Of a stretch of DNA of 20,678 nt, positions 9,185 through 17,291 are shown piece after piece (position 1 is the first letter of the stretch; every line of letters begins with the position of its first letter). A program made the position numbers and the translations under genes. The DNA comes from Saccoglossus kowalevskii (taxonomy: Eukaryota > Hemichordata > Enteropneusta > Harrimaniidae), in the NCBI RefSeq assembly GCF_000003605.2, contig NW_003133848.1, positions 86,710-107,387 on the forward strand, given 5' to 3'. The notes beneath the pieces were generated by a model. It was given only the letters and a program-made list of their open reading frames with translations. It was not told where the DNA came from and made no database searches.

Positions 9185-12100
9185 TTAGGGATCACTAACA
9201 TGTCGTATATCTCTCAATGTTAGACTTGTCTGGGTACCCGTCGTACAGAGTTCCTTTTTCTCGTTCATCACACAAGTGTCTAACAACCACCCCAGATTGT
9301 CCTGCAGGAAGCTTTGAAGTCCAGGCGGTAGTTCAAGAACCGCTAAGACCTTCAAGTCTTTGGGAATATACCTGCGTATTGCGTCACAACAAAGGAACTG
9401 TAATGTAGTAGGAAATGATCTGGTTTTTACAATCTTCATACCGGTCCGTGCAGCCGTGGAGCACACCACTGGATAAAGTTTCTTCCCTTGGAGACCTTTA
9501 AATGCCACACCTGTTAGAAATACTGAGCATTAATTTTATAATATAGTGGTTCTTTTCTTGTCAGACAATAGGAGCAGCCAAGGAAATGTTATTTTTTTAC
9601 AGTATCATCACTACTACTACCCCTAAAACTTGCTTTATATGTCGTCATGGTGACAACACTATACTCCAGTATAATGTATACCGGTACTTTTTATCAGTCG
9701 CTAGTGCATATCCAGTCAGGATATGTATTTCAATCGATCAAATATACTGTGGCAAAGTGTTGGTCGTCATTTCATATAATTTGGTAAGACAAAAAAAATG
9801 CAAAATTCATATAGAACAGAAAACTGTGAATATTCACACACATTGTTAGACTAGCAATGGTTTTCTAACACTCAATTGTGGAATGGGGAATTCCTTTGAC
9901 TCTTTGTTTTAGAGTATCAGGTTTTAAAAAGTAAAAAGACACTACAAGAACACATAACTGGTTCCGTTTAATTGTGGGTTTTGACAATTCATCACACTAA
10001 GTAATCAACAGTTGTCATACGTGCACATGTTAAGAATACAGCAGCAACAACTGTAACGGCAACATTTTAATTCCTAATTTCCGAGTTACCGTAAAATTCC
10101 TTTTTGAGGCCGCAGCTTTAATAGAAGCTGCACCCCTAACTTGAGACATTGTTTTATGTTGAAATTGACAAGTTTTGATCCCAGGGAAAAGTCTGCAATA
10201 TAAGCCGCACCCCAAACTTTCACAAACCAAACCAGCCACCACATATTTCAGAAAAAAATATACCATTTAATTTTAAATTAAGGCATAATTTTTCGAACAT
10301 TTCAATGATTCCTGTTGCTTAAATTAGAGTCTAATTAAGGTTTTCCGTAGTCATTGACGCTTATTCCAGAGTACAGGTTTATTGTGGGTAACGTGACTGG
10401 GTAAACTGCGTTTCGACAATGAGCTGTTATTATTTTCAAAAGTGTTAAATTCTTCTTCAATGCTCAGCTTATCTTTCGAAAACAACTAATTTCTTGATTT
10501 AAAAAAATCATGCCGTTTTCCCATCAAAATCAAAGCCAAACGATCGCACTACAACAACGGTAAATCTCTTCTGTGTTTCCTTTACCATGAGGTCGCTGAA
10601 CTACATTAACATATTTAAATGAACTATGGTAATTTAATCACGTTGGCACCATCCAGCGTTTCGATTGGTTAATTAGCGACTTGACCTATCAGGTCAACAT
10701 AACAGTTTCAAGTCACTAAAGATGTTTGAACTAACATGGCGGATATCGTATCGGTCGAGCATTTAGGGCTCATACCACTAATTGAATTTCCATAGACGAC
10801 AATGTTAACATATGACGAGATTGCTATATGAAAATGACGAAGAAAGTTGAAAATATGGCTCAAAAATGGGAAACCAACATGCCAGTAATCAACCATATGA
10901 AAAAAACTAACATGTTGGCCAGCTCAAACTCTTGCAAATCTCAGGTAAACAAGACACACCTACTGTACTTGGATTGCACCAAGAGAAATCACTGGAAAAA
11001 CACCAAGATTAGAACATCCATTAACACACAGAATAAACCCACAGGTACACAGCCGCTAAGTAGTAAACAAAAGACCACATGTTGGTCTCACCTCTGACCC
11101 AGGTGATTACGCCCTCAAACAGGGAGCACCTGAGAAAAATAATATTTAAAAAATTTCATTGGTTCTTGCTAGGCATTTAAATTGAGCAGCCATTGGTTAA
11201 TTAGTGGCATGAGACCTTTATATGTGACCAAAATCATTCGCTTGCGGTGAAACTAAGTTGAATTTTCACAACAATTCAACGAATTTATTTTTGTACATTA
11301 TTGTAATCACTACTGATTAATAATCAGCAATTGTAACACTTCGAAAACAAGTAAGTTATTCACTTGTGTGAAACGCAGCATGATCGTTACCGTGATCATT
11401 TGCTACTATAAAATGCATTCGTTTTTGTTTTGACTTCTTTTAGAATATACTTTTCGTTATCAAAAATAAGAAAATAAATATATATTACATTAAATAATGT
11501 ACTGAGTATTTTTTCGTTATCATTTTTTTTTTGATTGACTTTTTTTATTTTAAAAACCCCGATGTCTAGATTAAACATAGAATGTACAGTCACTCTGCCG
11601 GAAGTCGAACATGCCGCAATCGACTGTGTCAGATGGCTGTCTGCACGGTTACTAAAAGAGTGACTGGTGCTAACGAATTAGTCTATTCAAGAGATTGTAG
11701 TATACAGTACCGTAATCTGCAAATGCATACAAATCTATTTGTAGATATTATTTATTGTGCAGTATGTTATACAGTGTGAAATTTCGTTCGTGTACAAGTT
11801 TGTCTGCGTGTAAAAATCCGAAAGTGCCTTAGAATCGCAACAAAGTTGCAATCGAGTGTCGTGCATCTCATTAGCATATCATTATCCCTTCTGGCCTTTG
11901 TTTTCTGAAAAAAATTTCAACTGTTACCGAAGTGAATGCTCTAATTGAAGCCGCACCAAGACTTCACGCATCTGAATTCGTCCATTGAAAAAATTAATTT
12001 TAATTAAAGCCGCGGCCTCAAAAAGGAAATTTACGGTACTATTTTTCTCACGAAATTCGATAGAGGGCGTTCCCAAAGTACCCAGATGACAGCCCATTTA

Positions 12101-15100
12101 ACGTTCGTGGTGGGGTTGAAATTTGAGCGGCGTCTACTGCAAGCAATATACTAGTCGTTACTGTTGCTGAAGTCTTATTTTTTTACAAACGTTTTGCAAG
12201 AATTGGTCAAAATGATTAACTGGTATTGTAATGCCCCAGGCTATTCATCGAGTTTGATTAAAAAGAAACAAACAGCGAAATATCCTGAGATGAATGGCGT
12301 AATATTTCACACATTTCTTTAGTCCAAGAAATCAACACTTCGACGCCAGTGGATTCGAATGCTTCGTCGAGAACCTGAGTGGACGTCAAACGATATTCTC
12401 GGATTTGTTCACGGCATTTTCCATCCTGTACCAGTATTTTTTTGAGTTCAATAACTGGAGACAGCCGTCTTTCAACCGCAGTTATACATAGATTGAAAAA
12501 CGAAGACTTTCAGCTTCCCAAGACGAGCGTAAACGATAACATTGAGCCGGATTTGATAGAAAATTTGCTCGTTGCCTATTCCCACATTGATCTTCTTGTT
12601 CATAATCTTTGTGATGGCATTTGTTGTGAAGTTGAAGTTAAAGTTAAAATGACTACGGAAGGAAAAAAAGCTTGCGTCCATTTATATAACTGTATCTGCT
12701 GATCGCCTGGTGAATAAAATATTAAATCAAATTTACACTACACAGTTACAAACACCAGAAACTATTTTAGAGTTTGATTTAATAATAAACCATGGCTTGT
12801 AAGGATTTTCCTTCATGGATGTTTGCCGGATACACTCTGCCATAACGACAATAAATTCTGTATTCTGCACATGATGAAGCTTTACGGAAATGATGAAATA
12901 AATAACCATTATCAAGTCGATATTCTTTCAGTCTGGCTGTTGTCCAGTTACTTCGATGCAACAAATATGAGAATATATCAGCTATTTCAAACGTAGGCAA
13001 AGTATGAAGGTCTTTTTGCCAAGTTTTTACGTTATACGTAAATACGGAGCTACCAAAATTATCGTTGACTCACCATGTTTTACAGTACGATGACGACTTT
13101 TTACAGTACGTTGACTCTTCGCGATCGTCGGTCTCCAAAAGGCGAACATTTAACTCGTTTGCAAACTCAACAAGTTCAAAAAGTTTAGCTTTACGAACAT
13201 TGCTGCAAGTCATACCACGACCCTGAAGAAATTTGCGGAGTTCTGGAACTTTTTTGTTTTTCCAATCTATTGATTTACGCATGTAAGAATGCAGAACGTC
13301 AATAACGTCAAACAACCCCACTCAGGCTCGTCATCCGGGTATTTTGGACGCACCCTCTAGCAGGATTCCGGGGAAAACTAACAACTCGAAAATTAGGAAT
13401 TATCATATACTGGTAACTACAATTTACAGAATTCTCTTTTATCTGTGCACTATTTCAATGATTTGCATGACTGTAATTACCTTGTCATGCACTGAATAAT
13501 AGTGACAATATTCTATGAAACCTAAATTGTGCAAATAAAAACTTTGAGACTTGAAAATTACAAATACTGGCCTACATACCTGATGGTTGCCGGTTTATGT
13601 AAAACGATAATGTTCCCGACCACGTATTCAGGTGTACTCCTACCACAGTGTTCTGACCGAACTTTGAACAGTAACGTTTTGGTGTGCCATCATGTTGCAT
13701 ATGGCCAGTATAGGACAGGCCCCAGCTATTGTGATCCAGACCCAGTAGACTGCAGAACTTAGTATGGTACTTTGTTAAGTCTAGTTCATCTGTGCCAACG
13801 CCCACCATCTAGATTTAAGCATAGCAATACAAAGTTTAATTGATGTAAATAATACTACAAAATGTAGTACAAAAGATGTATTGTTTTTCAATTTTTCAAA
13901 TATAGTTTTTTTCATTGTACATGTATATTGATTCACAAAGATTCAGTTCTGTCTAGGGAATGATATCTTTGTTTATGCACAAAAATTCAAATACAAAATC
14001 TAAGCACACAAATTCAGATACATCTCATAACAGTGCCCGAAAATGTTTACTACTTTTTGAAGATATTTCGTAACGTAACTGCACATATACATATGCTAGA
14101 CAGTTTATAGCTTAAGAGAGTTGTTACGTTTTAAGAGTGCTCAGAATCGTTATGTGAGTACATGTGTGTGGTGTGTTCGATTATGCAAATTTCAATTTTT
14201 TTAGCTGACCTATACTTTCCAGCATCTTCCAAAAAAAGAACAATGAAAAGATGTTTAACAAAATACCGTAATTTAGGTTAATTTACATCACACGCTTTGG
14301 CATATATGCTCTGCAATTATTTGATTTGTGTTTTCATTGACCAGGCGGGGAGGTCAGAACAGATACACAAAAAATTGAATTCCATGATATGGGAAAATGA
14401 TTGTAGCAGTGAAAAGCTCACTAAGGTTCTTTAGACAAGGTCACAATAACATACTGTATTTGAGGTTTAGGATTTCAACAGAAGCATATTTATTGCATAC
14501 TGAATCATTAAATTTGAATTTTTTTTGACCATGGACAAACAAATATAGAAAATACAGCCCCAATAAATGCTATAAAATAATCACACAATGACAATTTATG
14601 CCAGCAAACACTTCACACTAACAAATATTTACAATTTCTAAAATATTTTGAGAGGAAATCCTTGTTTCAAGAACCCTGGCGAAATCTTTACAATATTTTG
14701 CAATTTTCTTGCACACATGAAATTCATGAAATATAGATTTGACAGCTTACCATATCGGTTCCATACACTGGTGATATCATCTTTATTTCCCAATAATGCT
14801 GGCCATCAATCATAGGCATACTACCACGTGCTGCAGCAGTACCACAGCTATAGTTTTTATGAAACCATACTTCACGATTTTCTAAATACACATCACTGAC
14901 AGTGGTATTCGGAGGTGGTATGGGGTTGTCCCACTGCCATTCTGTATCTGAGAGAGAAAACTTTTCCCTTATTTCGATACTACTCAATCTGATTAAAATA
15001 AGGTCCTAGTTTGGGTTTGTTTGTTTTTTGTTAAAATAATATCATTCATATTTTTTTCATATATTCTATTATTTGTGGGCTTTCGCGATTACCAAAACTT

Positions 15101-16880
15101 AAAAAAATACCAGCAAACAAATTTTAAAAAAAATAATAGAATAAATGAAAAAAATATGAATGATATTATTTTAACACAAAAAAAAAAAAAAAAAAAAAAG
15201 CCCAAACTAGGATCTTATTTTAATCAGATTGGATACTACTCATCAATTGTATGGTTTTGAACAAAATAAACTTCACAATTGCAAAGAATGGTTATTAACT
15301 ATTCCCAGAAGCCATTGGAATTTTCATTTTTATATTAATAGAAATGGATCGTTGATTGCATGATGTGTCACTTTCACAACACTTGACTTTCACGATTGTT
15401 TTTTAGTTGAGTAGCAAAGAAAAATTGGGAAAAAATATTACCAATAATACTAACCAATTTATTTGGATTTTCAGTCTTCAAGTGACTGTGGATCTAGTCC
15501 ACTAAATGACATGTACTGGCAGCAATGAGGAAGCATGCAAAAGGAGTAAAGAATTACTAATTGTATTTTGTATTGTTTTATATAAAAATGCTCGGAGATT
15601 GGTATATTCTTTATTTTGTATAAATTATATTCTATCATGGAAGGTTTGAATGAAGTAACTGTGATGAAATGTGACATGACTGACAAGACCATGAGAAGCA
15701 ATCTCCCCAGGCAGAGTTCTATCACGAATATATCTCTGCCACCATGCGATCTTATGCTTGTCGTTGATTGGTCGATGCGTCACAGCGGTACTACTTTCAA
15801 AGACCCTCACCAAAACATTGCCATGCAAGTGTTCGATTTTCGAATCTGACGAATGTGTATCGTTGTTTACAGATTTTGGCTGTTTTCAAAGTTAGAAGCT
15901 TCTTTTTTTCTTTCTGTAGCACAAACGGTGTGACAGTGGGACGATTAGTCGTTGATACTACGAAGTGTTTTCGTTTGTTCATATTTCTTCGACAGGACGG
16001 TCAATTTGATTAACCGAGTAACACCTTAGTAACCGTTATTCCGCGATGAAATTATTTTCTTTTGTAAATTATATAACTAATTCACTGTTTTCAGTATGTT
16101 TACGAAAAAATCATTATCAGACATCGATAACATATTTTAAAACTTGTTTACTAGGATGAAGAAATCAACACGAGATTCCTCTAATAACAAAAATACGCAA
16201 ATAATACGCGTAGTAAATGTCTTGTGGTGTTTCACCACAAAATGGCAGTGTGTGGTGGCAGAGATACTTTCGTTGATCTAACCGCAAGGAACTCTGGGAA
16301 GGAGAATGCATGAGAAGACAAGGGTTCATATTCTTATTACAATGAATGGAAGGCTACATACATGCAGTCTTACTGCATATGTCCTTGAGAGCCCTAACCC
16401 TAAAGGAAAACACTCATTTGATATCACAGGGTGGCCAAATTAAAATCTATAGAAACTATCACTCTCGGTACGGATCATGAAGGTGAACGCCCAAAATATC
16501 TGCCAAAACAATTGTTGAAAAACGTTAGGAATGCAATTTGTAGGTAATGTAAACAACATTCAACCTCAATTACTCCACTCTTCGACATTGATATGGCTAA
16601 CTATAAAAGGCTTCACACGGAAATGTCTCCTACCTGAGTGTTCCTCGTTACACGTACATGAGCAATTGTTGGTACTACTATTTCCTGAACAGTCACAAAA
16701 TGTGCCATTTGATGTCGCTCGTCGGTACACATATTTATGGAATTTCGTTCGGTCGCGCTCACTCTCAAAAATGTGTTCGTCTTCGCTCGAGGAAGAAGTA
16801 CTGAGCGTAACAACAACACGATTTCCTCGAACCTGCGGCCTCCGAGGTCTTTTTCGAGGTCTACTTAGCTCCCTCGACAT
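9185..16880 (-). CDS. SPSB3: SPRY domain-containing SOCS box protein 3 (complete CDS, four exons)
   Basis: Exons on the minus strand are 16880-16634, 14947-14751, 13808-13580 and 9510-9185 (999 nt, 332 residues; the human protein is about 355). Introns are GT-AG, and the two split codons rejoin as Asp83 and Gly225. SPSB3 is a substrate receptor that recruits Elongin B/C and Cullin-5 to ubiquitylate targets; nuclear cGAS is a reported target of the human protein. Residues 8-15 (PRKRPRRP) form a basic, NLS-like patch, and a Cys-rich stretch (62-77, FCDCSG) also occurs in human SPSB3. The SPRY domain spans about 85-255, with YSCGTAAARG, GQHYWEIKM, SPVYGTDMMVGVGTDELDL, SWGLSYTG, GVHLNTWSGTLSF and YPVVCSTAAR. 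The SOCS box begins with the BC box TLQFLCCDAI (260-269), and LELPPGL (283-289) occupies the Cul5-box position. The start is the first in-frame ATG, with A at -3. Confidence 0.95.
9511..10086 (-). other. 3' part of SPSB3 last intron, no gene seen
   Basis: This is the end of the 4069-bp intron (13579-9511), closed by the TTTCTAACAG acceptor. It contains one TACCGGTA palindrome at 9679-9686. The open frame at 9586-9849 has no recognisable domain. Confidence 0.6.
10089..12036. mobile_element. Non-autonomous DNA transposon with 34-bp inverted ends, TA target site
   Basis: The left end starts CCGTAAAATTCC at 10089 and the right end, read in reverse complement from 12036, starts CCGTAAATTTCC. The two 34-bp ends differ at 2 positions and both contain TTTTTGAGGCCGCRGCTTTAAT. 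TA flanks both edges (10087-10088, 12037-12038). Inside, AAGCYGCACC-type motifs recur in one orientation near 10125, 10206 and 11949, as subterminal repeats. The TA site and the end style suggest a Tc1/mariner-pogo relative, which is inference. The 1.95-kb body has no transposase I can recognise; the frames at 10828-11097, 11396-11593 and 11582-11779 look non-coding. It lies in the SPSB3 last intron. Confidence 0.8.
12212..12702 (+). pseudogene. Broken THAP zinc-finger gene (transposon-derived)
   Basis: From ATG at 12212 the frame reads NWYCNAPGYSSS, then VIFHTF, then a TAG at 12320-12322. The same frame continues SKKSTLRRQWIRML, and after a frameshift near 12380-12390 gives YSRICSRHFPSC (CSRHF at 12406-12420). 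This follows the order of a THAP C2CH domain: N-terminal Cys, FHxFP-like motif, RxxW, and C-x2-HF. It has one nonsense codon, one frameshift, and Tyr in place of the second zinc Cys (CNAPGY). The tail to the stop at 12700-12702 has no known domain. THAP domains bind DNA, and in transposases they recognise the element ends. A 24-bp GTAATA...TTTCTTTAG stretch around the TAG resembles an intron but is too short for one. It is best read as a dead remnant. Confidence 0.7.
12736..13321 (-). pseudogene. Broken SAP plus SWIM zinc-finger gene remnant (YqaJ-protein N-terminus type)
   Basis: Read on the minus strand, the frame from 13321 (ATG at 13282) gives a SAP-like helix pair, WKNKKVPELRKFLQGRGM followed by RKAKLFELVEFANEL. 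It meets TGA at 13072-13070 and continues in the same frame with LPTFEIADIFSYLLHRSNW and LKEYRLDNGYLFHHF. A frameshift near 12890 then leads to ENPYKPWFIIKSNSKIVSGV and the CNC of a SWIM motif, and stops. SWIM fingers need a later C-x-H, which is absent. This order (SAP, FTxxDIxxYL-type segment, PW(V/F)I segment, SWIM) matches the N-terminal half of invertebrate proteins that carry a YqaJ-like nuclease at their C-terminus. The TGA overlaps a good donor (CATG|GTGAGT), so an original intron there is possible. Confidence 0.65.
13809..14750 (-). other. SPSB3 second intron, 942 bp
   Basis: It runs from a GTAAGC donor (14750) to an AAATCTAG acceptor before ATG at 13808, phase 0. It contains only AT-rich sequence with no gene or clear repeat. 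Confidence 0.8.
14948..16633 (-). other. SPSB3 first intron, 1686 bp
   Basis: It runs from a GTAGGA donor (after TCAG at 16634) to a pyrimidine-rich TTTTCTCTCTCAG acceptor before 14947. A foldback element sits 29 bp upstream of that acceptor. Blocks at about 15677-15765 and 16253-16310 resemble each other in opposite orientation; they share TGGTGGCAGAGATA. Open frames near 15616-16013 show no domain. Confidence 0.75.
14985..15231. mobile_element. Foldback MITE with 9-bp target duplication (Mutator-like)
   Basis: Two arms of about 90-100 bp (14985-15074 and 15131-15231) are near-perfect reverse complements, starting CAATCTGATTAAAATAAG and ending with its complement. They surround a 56-bp loop. 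GATACTACT is repeated directly at 14976-14984 and 15232-15240, as a 9-bp target duplication. Long inverted arms plus 9-bp duplications are typical of Mutator-like non-autonomous elements. A run of 22 A at 15178-15199 in the right arm faces a shorter T-rich stretch in the left arm. It has no coding capacity. It lies in the SPSB3 first intron, close to the exon 2 acceptor. Confidence 0.82.
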
Positions 16881-17291
16881 GTTCTGGGTTCTATAAGTTC
16901 CACGGTAACAGCAAACCACCAATTCTGTGTAACAATATTGTGAAAGTAAAACGTGAAAATTATCAAAAACAAACCTGACGTTGCAAACAGGAAGTATCAA
17001 TAAGTCTGGGATAGCGCCCTCAACCCAATTTCCTTTCAATTCTTCCGTTTGTATGATAAATTATGTCGGTCGATTCATCATAGCACGGTTACTAAAAATC
17101 TTCGTTATCTCTACAATCACATTGTACAACGTATTTAAATTATTCGCAGTAACTAAAAAAACCTGGGTGCCTTTCTTCGAAGATACAGACACTCATTTCT
17201 ATTAAATCATTCGGGTATATTTCATTTCTCATGTGCGCAACTTTCTGTTGCGAAAAACAAAAGAATGATGACATTATGTTATGTTTAATAT
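16881..17291 (-). promoter_or_regulatory. Likely SPSB3 5' UTR and proximal promoter region
   Basis: This stretch lies upstream of the SPSB3 ATG. Translation stays open back to about 17039 but has no other ATG, so I treat it as 5' UTR. A TTGTTACACAG acceptor-like site lies near 16926 (minus strand) and could receive a spliced non-coding first exon. I see no convincing TATA box. Confidence 0.35.

Follow-up and report, generated by a model that had tools for sequence, protein, structure and literature searches.

A probable internally deleted copy of an ISL2EU-type DNA transposon in Saccoglossus kowalevskii and its broken two-gene relatives

Known two-gene elements and the present family

ISL2EU elements belong to the PHIS superfamily and, as set out in the main text of Han et al. 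2015 (PMC4482050), carry one gene for a transposase with THAP, HTH and DDE parts and another for a YqaJ protein, lie between inverted ends of 6–259 bp, and insert at A|AT|T with duplication of AT. The autonomous element is given there as ~4.8 kb on average, and most ends open with GG, a feature that is usual, not defining. The same main text, in which the words SAP and SWIM have 0 and 0 occurrences, calls the role of the additional genes unknown. It also describes Harbinger, in which the second protein is of the Myb/SANT kind and the target duplication is TWA, and Spy, a further PHIS group with one gene, an AAATTT target and no duplication.

The locus described here lies in a 20,678-nucleotide stretch of S. 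kowalevskii DNA (the window), of which positions 10069–13401 are very probably a dead copy, non-autonomous and internally deleted, of an ISL2EU-type cut-and-paste DNA transposon, derived from a two-gene parent and presumably multiplied in trans. As in ISL2EU, a PHIS-type DDE domain, absent from the window, lies behind the same left end in two broken relatives (L049 and L072); THAP and HTH belong to one transposase gene, going by the THAP remnant of the window, the order of pieces in L072 and the HTH_Tnp_4 match in L049; and the second gene is YqaJ-type in relatives, although YqaJ is missing from the window copy. The inverted ends of ~72 bp lie within the published range, and the AATT-like target and the animal host would likewise fit. 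Unlike ISL2EU as described in that text, the ends open with AATTCC (TCC or CC past the target copy), not GG, the partner protein also shows SAP-like and SWIM parts, and the window copy is a deletion derivative rather than an autonomous element. A DDE/HTH transposase combined with a second protein is shared with PIF/Harbinger, from which the YqaJ-type second gene and the AATT border set the present family apart; Spy has a related DDE domain and an A/T-rich palindromic target, but differs in its single gene, AAATTT site and lack of duplication. By its gene plan we file this apparently new family of a known kind as probably ISL2EU, in agreement with the preliminary description, which pointed to that superfamily's two-gene plan; the THAP-HTH-DDE and YqaJ parts of broken relatives match the plan as published. 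A sparsely described transposon group thereby gains a family for which ends and target are defined and longer, though broken, relatives are available.

Copies, ends and target site

The features of the window copy are as follows.

10069–10088, plus strand: true left end AATTCCTAATTTCCGAGTTA, the initial 20 bp of the left inverted repeat; opens with the AATT target copy and matches the left end of other copies
10089–12036, no strand: nested insertion of 1948 bp with ends CCGTAAA.../...TTTACGG; TA at 10087–10088 and 12037–12038
12037–12090, plus strand: remaining left inverted repeat, from the ~72-bp end alignment, with GAGGGCGT inside
12212–12642, plus strand: gene 1 remnant, a frame-broken THAP (~12212–12450) and linker, cut before HTH and DDE
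12642–12652 (approximate, BLAST edges), no strand: internal deletion joint fusing both genes
12652–12738, minus strand: start of the gene 2 intron behind its first SWIM exon, from comparison with L049 and L070
12736–13321, minus strand: gene 2 remnant with a SAP-like part (~13155–13276), a conserved stretch LP.FEIADIFSYLLHRS.WTTARLKEYRL and the first half of a SWIM (CNC, ~12736–12807)
13330–13401, minus strand: right inverted repeat with the true right end ...GAAAATTAGGAATT, from copy alignments and the ~72-bp end alignment

Alignment of sibling copies from the host genome places the true ends at AATTCCTAATTT…AAATTAGGAATT, and an alignment of the two ends shows them mutually inverted over ~72 bp. 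The 19-bp terminal pattern has 74 genome matches at ≤1 mismatch, compared with 0 for a reversed control; these resolve into 18 inward pairs, among which 17 different left ends occur. AATT borders both ends in 12/14 aligned rows, and homology among copies ends together at these borders. Two tandem arrays contain unoccupied units, TTTTCAC-CATT-CCGG, as against the occupied TTTTCAC-AATT..AATT-CCGG; the unoccupied units have four bases between the flanks, with CATT instead of AATT, which is compatible with a duplication of either 2 bp or 4 bp. The target is AATT-like, backed by these imperfect unoccupied sites.

The same observations bear on whether the family is instead, like Spy and Pangu, a separate PHIS group beside ISL2EU, marked by TCC/CC ends of its own and a 4-bp AATT duplication. 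The missing GG, the AATT at both ends and the four bases between the flanks of the unoccupied units speak for such a group; however, AATT is what one would expect from the A|AT|T target published for ISL2EU, and the genes follow the ISL2EU plan of the main text of PMC4482050, so that we consider a separate group unlikely.

At least 61 matches occur in the host's own genome, and the copies have different flanks while their ends and AATT borders are common. Homology to L072 on the THAP side stops at 12642 and homology to L049 on the partner side starts at 12652, and the internal joint thus bracketed (~12642–12652) is spanned by 13/14 aligned copies, which therefore represent an amplified non-autonomous derivative. 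Non-autonomous deletion derivatives of DNA transposons in general share ends and an internal joint and are multiplied in trans; the present one differs in that the 5' portion of each gene is retained. The window copy had been read as a lone relic, and it is indeed dead and deleted, but it is one copy of this amplified derivative, later interrupted by another insertion. The proposed search for further copies was thus productive, with THAP and SAP/SWIM pieces not confined to separate elements. Two unrelated pseudogenes, joined by chance or by segmental duplication with no transposon involved, would account for both genes being broken in the copies examined; this is highly improbable, and is already refuted because the dispersed copies have different flanks, quite apart from their common ends and AATT borders, the unoccupied units in the tandem arrays and the relatives with the same gene pairing. 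Segmental duplication in general was rejected on the same dispersal, and a host gene derived from the transposon on the broken state of the frames seen.

Among inward terminal pairs (≤1 mismatch, <20 kb apart), none was longer than 4.1 kb. The 4.1-kb span itself (L013) was rejected as an autonomous copy: it starts at the left end of a 1.35-kb copy and closes at another right end beyond that copy, and no HTH, DDE or YqaJ piece was found in it (~500 N inside). A 2.16-kb pair at C1340 (L071) and a 2.46-kb pair at C2502 likewise gave no match to HTH, DDE or YqaJ pieces. Terminal matches at places including C617, C1757, C1854, C2787 and C4227 lie outside the examined set. The full-length intact copies that had been hoped for did not appear among the terminal pairs found, and because none of these pairs encloses the two genes intact, the parent was pieced together from several broken relatives.

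Gene remnants, longer relatives and proposed origin

The plus-strand THAP remnant of the preliminary description was recovered with PF05485 (E 9e-9) in a read-through translation of the window with X at frame breaks; when the pieces of the frame were searched separately against Pfam, 0/3 matched. The gene 1 remnant is 74.7% homologous to L072, in which it is followed by pieces of HTH and DDE.

On the minus strand, where SAP and half a SWIM had been described, the SAP-like frame and, by eye, the CNC motif of the first SWIM half were both found, but SAP stayed below cut-off in the window (E 0.11), as did HeH/LEM (E 0.065). Six related pieces, the window's included, gave SAP in 5/6 (best E 7.5e-5) and HeH/LEM in 5/6 (best E 2.4e-4), both being below cut-off for the one of the six members with displayed scores. 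A structure search with the SAP profile returned six weak matches, the best being 1zrj_A (E 0.16; E1B-55kDa-associated protein 5), which we take to be a SAP domain, and the other five bearing unrelated names. The exon of L049 matches the window by tblastn at E 3e-39; in L049, CNCVA is followed by a GTAAGT donor, and in L070 by a mutated donor, an intron and then a second SWIM exon. A Pfam search of the spliced reads did not recognise SWIM. The YqaJ part is deleted from the window's remnant, and comparison with the relatives points to a partner protein in which SAP-like and SWIM parts stand ahead of the nuclease domain.

Several broken relatives, some only ~66–75% alike to the window in DNA, retain what the window copy has lost. 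L049 has the same left end, HTH_Tnp_4 (E 7.5e-12), DDE_Tnp_4 (PF13359, E 2.6e-36) and convergent SWIM/YqaJ pieces, of which the YqaJ piece is below cut-off (E 0.033); K stands at what we assume, from the DDE motif, to be the place of the catalytic E. In L072, the same left end leads, in order, into part of a THAP, assigned through its homology to the window sequence, then a linker and pieces of HTH and DDE. L070 has both ends, a THAP start and convergent SAP/SWIM/YqaJ-like pieces. A THAP start, YqaJ above cut-off and SWIM pieces occur at C14 (L061, L069) with both ends, the left by eye, and in L063, L064 and L065 with the left inverted repeat. In all, five elements combine a THAP start with YqaJ/SWIM pieces behind one left end, 2/5 with both ends. 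YqaJ (PF09588) is above cut-off at C14, C2307, C2673 and C3647, within elements that have these ends or similar ones. Less than 5 kb inside a terminal match, DDE_Tnp_4 was observed 2 times against 0.04 expected at random, and YqaJ 2 times against 0.008; DDE_Tnp_4 lies within 3 kb of YqaJ in 5/12 YqaJ matches, and 4/5 of these are convergent.

THAP domains or TA targets also occur among P-element, Kolobok and Tc1/mariner elements, in which target duplications are 8 bp, TTAA and TA, respectively. Derivation from one of these, to which the THAP domain could point, is very doubtful: relatives with the same left end carry DDE_Tnp_4 as their catalytic domain, accompanied by HTH_Tnp_4, the partner is YqaJ-type, and the border is AATT. 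In wider searches, viral contigs gave 3 stretches with the partner remnant and 7 with the DDE domain, none confirmed, phages gave nothing with the partner exon, solved structures gave only two matches with the DDE domain (E 0.31 and 0.37), and Rfam found nothing in the window.

The ISL2EU-type parent would have had two convergent genes inside ~72-bp inverted ends, inserting at AATT, with a THAP-HTH-DDE_Tnp_4 transposase at the left end and a SAP-like/SWIM/YqaJ nuclease-type partner at the right. Abortive repair after excision may have deleted the middle, leaving a product of ~1.1–1.4 kb that kept both ends and was presumably multiplied in trans by the proteins of a fuller copy. THAP would recognise the ends, the DDE domain would cut and join, and the SAP/SWIM/YqaJ protein may act as an accessory nuclease or end-processing factor. 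The window copy probably inserted into an intron of a SPRY/SOCS-box gene, decayed and was then struck by a second transposon. More speculatively, and with little likelihood, the partner's SAP/SWIM N-terminal part might itself recognise the transposon end and bring the YqaJ nuclease to it, so that ends would be processed in transposition by a nuclease as well as by the DDE enzyme; in that case the recognition parts of both genes that persist in the amplified derivative might have been under selection, for instance in the role of repressors, instead of being kept by accident.

Extent of the element and the nested insertion

The preliminary description had one transposon lineage pairing THAP and SAP/SWIM genes, and the pairing holds through the DDE and YqaJ parts of relatives, but its ends, TA duplication and extent do not. 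The inverted pair at 12061/13359 is genuine and exceeds what chance would give. The local score of this pair, 28, which takes in outer bases where the inverted repeat continues outward, was reached by 0/2951 random window pairs (top 23) and 0/5000 base shuffles (top 25). A 1299-bp element with ends at 12061/13359 and a TA duplication, although the symmetrical inner pair TAGAGGG/CCCTCTA resembles TA plus inverted ends, has practically no chance of being correct and is refuted because the sequence beyond these positions is shared by the 13 other copies in which both flanks could be read, and homology stops at the AATT borders instead. The TA at GAGGGCGT/TA is thus internal sequence, through which sibling copies continue outward. 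A plausible but wrong boundary call is thereby corrected, with a lesson for nested elements read from a single copy.

The full element includes the nested insertion, which splits its left end; siblings with a readable left end run uninterrupted through the site, and the insertion's own ends match inverted over 33 bp at 94%.

True borders, target site and setting

The inverted pair at 12061 and 13359, which the preliminary description took for the ends of a 1299-bp element, is genuine: its local alignment reached a top score of 28, which neither 2951 random pairs taken from the window (maximum 23) nor 5000 base shuffles (maximum 25) equalled. This alignment already extended outside the proposed ends, however, and the sequence outside GAGGGCGT is shared by the 13 further copies whose two flanks could be read, showing that the element continues further; the sequence beyond the supposed TA target duplication is likewise common to these copies, so TA was abandoned as the duplication. 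Right-hand homology among copies stops at ~13401, and left-hand homology reaches 12037, then resumes at 10069–10089. The element termini are therefore AATTCCTAATTTCCGAGTTA...GAAAATTAGGAATT, and the window copy carries an additional 1948 bp. The terminal inverted repeats are alignable over ~72 bp, with the window copy scoring 41.

Features within and around the element
10089–12036: nested insertion of 1948 bp, bordered by TA left and right; its inverted ends, 33 bp long, start with CCGTAAA
13572–13808, − strand: SPRY exon, E 1.6e-9
9185–9529, − strand: SOCS-box exon, E 3.3e-7

The longest listed reading frames inside the nested insertion are 93 aa. Two other copies carry additional segments near the right end, ~312 bp in L009 and 385 bp in L026, which resemble the left flank of a further copy stretch, L021, and are probably another repeat. 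Because SPRY and SOCS-box exons flank the element on both sides, it is intronic if these exons form one gene; we take the exons at 9185–17060 (−) to be SPSB3-like, and Pfam returned no match on frames 14724–15005 and 16566–17060 (−).

Among the 14 rows whose two ends could be read, 13 from other copies and one from the window, 12 have AATT left and right, the exceptions being L010, with AATT at neither end, and L011, with AATT at the left end only; no further duplication was seen outside AATT in these 14 rows. In L014 (contig C1561) and L043 (C4465), the element occupies the same site of a tandem repeat. One element-free unit beside the insertion in each array reads TTTTCAC-CATT-CCGG, and occupied units in both arrays read TTTTCAC-AATT...AATT-CCGG. 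Because four bases separate the flanks in the empty units, the target is AATT-like, the C of the empty unit being one mismatch to this reading; empty and occupied units fit a 2-bp and a 4-bp duplication alike. This tandem repeat (L007, L014, L043) was hit at one and the same position at two loci, in opposite orientations, which suggests a favoured target.

An amplified deletion derivative and its lost domains

Searching the genome (572 Mb, 4830 contigs), whose genes point to an animal, with 12061–13359 gave at least 61 matches, with scores for 40 of 59 candidates. Fourteen aligned copies differ pairwise by 2.5–9.3% (window copy versus others, 6.8–9.3%), and 13 of them span the same internal joint, the exception, L028, being deleted there. 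A 19-bp terminal pattern, allowing at most one mismatch, occurs at 74 places, compared to 0 for the reversed control; these matches make 18 inward pairs of 1.09–4.13 kb with 17 distinct left ends. No DDE piece was found in 17 terminal pairs, the window copy among them, and the search for full-length copies between the same ends, as proposed in the preliminary description, yielded no intact element among these pairs, of which the C4180 span holds ~500 N. The element is an amplified derivative, and the data show its termini, its target, the convergent arrangement of its genes, the common joint and its dispersal.

Three-frame translation revealed a frame-broken THAP-like gene on the + strand and a SAP-like/half-SWIM gene on the − strand. 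The former of these two previously described remnants was upheld by PF05485 (E 9e-9) with X placed at the frame breaks, its three separate pieces giving no Pfam match, and the SAP reading of the latter is weak, with both SAP (E 0.11) and HeH/LEM (E 0.065) below cut-off in the window piece. SAP ranked after three other families in the L043 partner piece (E 0.17), and across six related partner pieces, including the window's, the best values were E 7.5e-5 for SAP and E 2.4e-4 for HeH/LEM.

Relatives carry the lost domains. L049 (C3944) opens at L049 5998 with the common left end and lacks THAP; HTH_Tnp_4 (E 7.5e-12) and DDE_Tnp_4 (E 2.6e-36) follow on the + strand. Convergent with these, on the − strand, lie a partner exon that holds the first half of SWIM and has its homologue in the window (E 3e-39), the next exon and YqaJ-like pieces (PF09588 E 0.033, Viral_alk_exo E 0.012, both below cut-off). 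The right end of the element was not found in L049. L072 (C2719, also matched independently by PF13359) has the left end and, over a stretch that shares 74.7% identity with that of the window, a partial THAP domain, assigned by homology, plus a linker; HTH-like (E 3e-13) and DDE-like (E 6e-36) pieces follow in tblastn. On the window, THAP-side homology extends up to 12642 and partner-side homology begins at 12652; these BLAST edges locate the joint.

Comparison with ISL2EU and proposed mechanism

According to Han et al. 2015 (PMC4482050), ISL2EU elements of animals have one gene for DDE, HTH and THAP and a second for YqaJ; they duplicate AT within A|AT|T, and their ends, 6–259 bp long, usually begin GG. 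PMC9179366 gives an identical gene plan. The window family and its relatives, taken together, have this plan, and the ~72-bp inverted ends fall within the published range, whereas the GG start is missing. The earlier assignment to ISL2EU, which fits in gene plan and end length, is probable. The words SWIM and SAP are absent from the main text of PMC4482050, as are SWIM and 'SAP domain' from PMC9179366. In the papers searched, outside subscription titles and Repbase, YqaJ was not found together with 'SAP domain', and ISL2EU and SWIM co-occur only through a fish virus name; within that scope, the SAP/SWIM part may be undescribed so far for ISL2EU.

By analogy with established transposon biology, the DDE enzyme would move the element by cut-and-paste and THAP would recognise its ends; the middle may have been lost through abortive repair and the derivative multiplied in trans. 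The partner would most likely be an accessory nuclease, putatively working at the ends or donor gap.

YqaJ relatives and independent pairings

Scanning the genome for YqaJ returned 12 matches, every one above cut-off. On C14 (L061/L069), two ends, of which the left was recognised by eye, enclose ~2.9 kb with a THAP start, YqaJ (PF09588 E 2.1e-5, one frame) and SWIM pieces. L070 (C173), absent from the 12 matches, comprises 1775 bp with both ends; besides a THAP start it holds SAP, SWIM and YqaJ-like pieces in convergent orientation. L063, L064 and L065 show the left inverted repeat, a THAP start and YqaJ/SWIM, L063 and L065 being aligned from the eighth base of the repeat and lying outside the 74 terminal matches. 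Since the THAP start as read in L064 served as the query, the self-match of L064 is not a test, whereas the matches of the other four are.

DDE_Tnp_4 lies within 3 kb of YqaJ at 5 of the 12 matches (0.008 such pairs expected at random), convergent at C2261, C2730, C3086 and C2726 and not convergent at C4613. Because their DDE pieces share only ~34–48% protein identity with that of L049, these five are taken for other families. Stretches L056, L057, L059 and L060 show convergent DDE_Tnp_4 and YqaJ genes in other families of the same genome, and L058 (C4613) has the two in a different order. The top YqaJ match coincides with a 487-aa open frame (L055 1606–3066, −), with no DDE match in the 3.5 kb of this stretch.

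In L070, a full SWIM motif is legible across an intron, CNCVA then EHGSCKHCAALLF; because Pfam gives this reading no score, we take it to be SWIM by the motif. A 332-aa frame in L062 (359–1354, +) contains, by eye, a complete SWIM-like motif (CECKA..GRCSH) directly before a YqaJ match.
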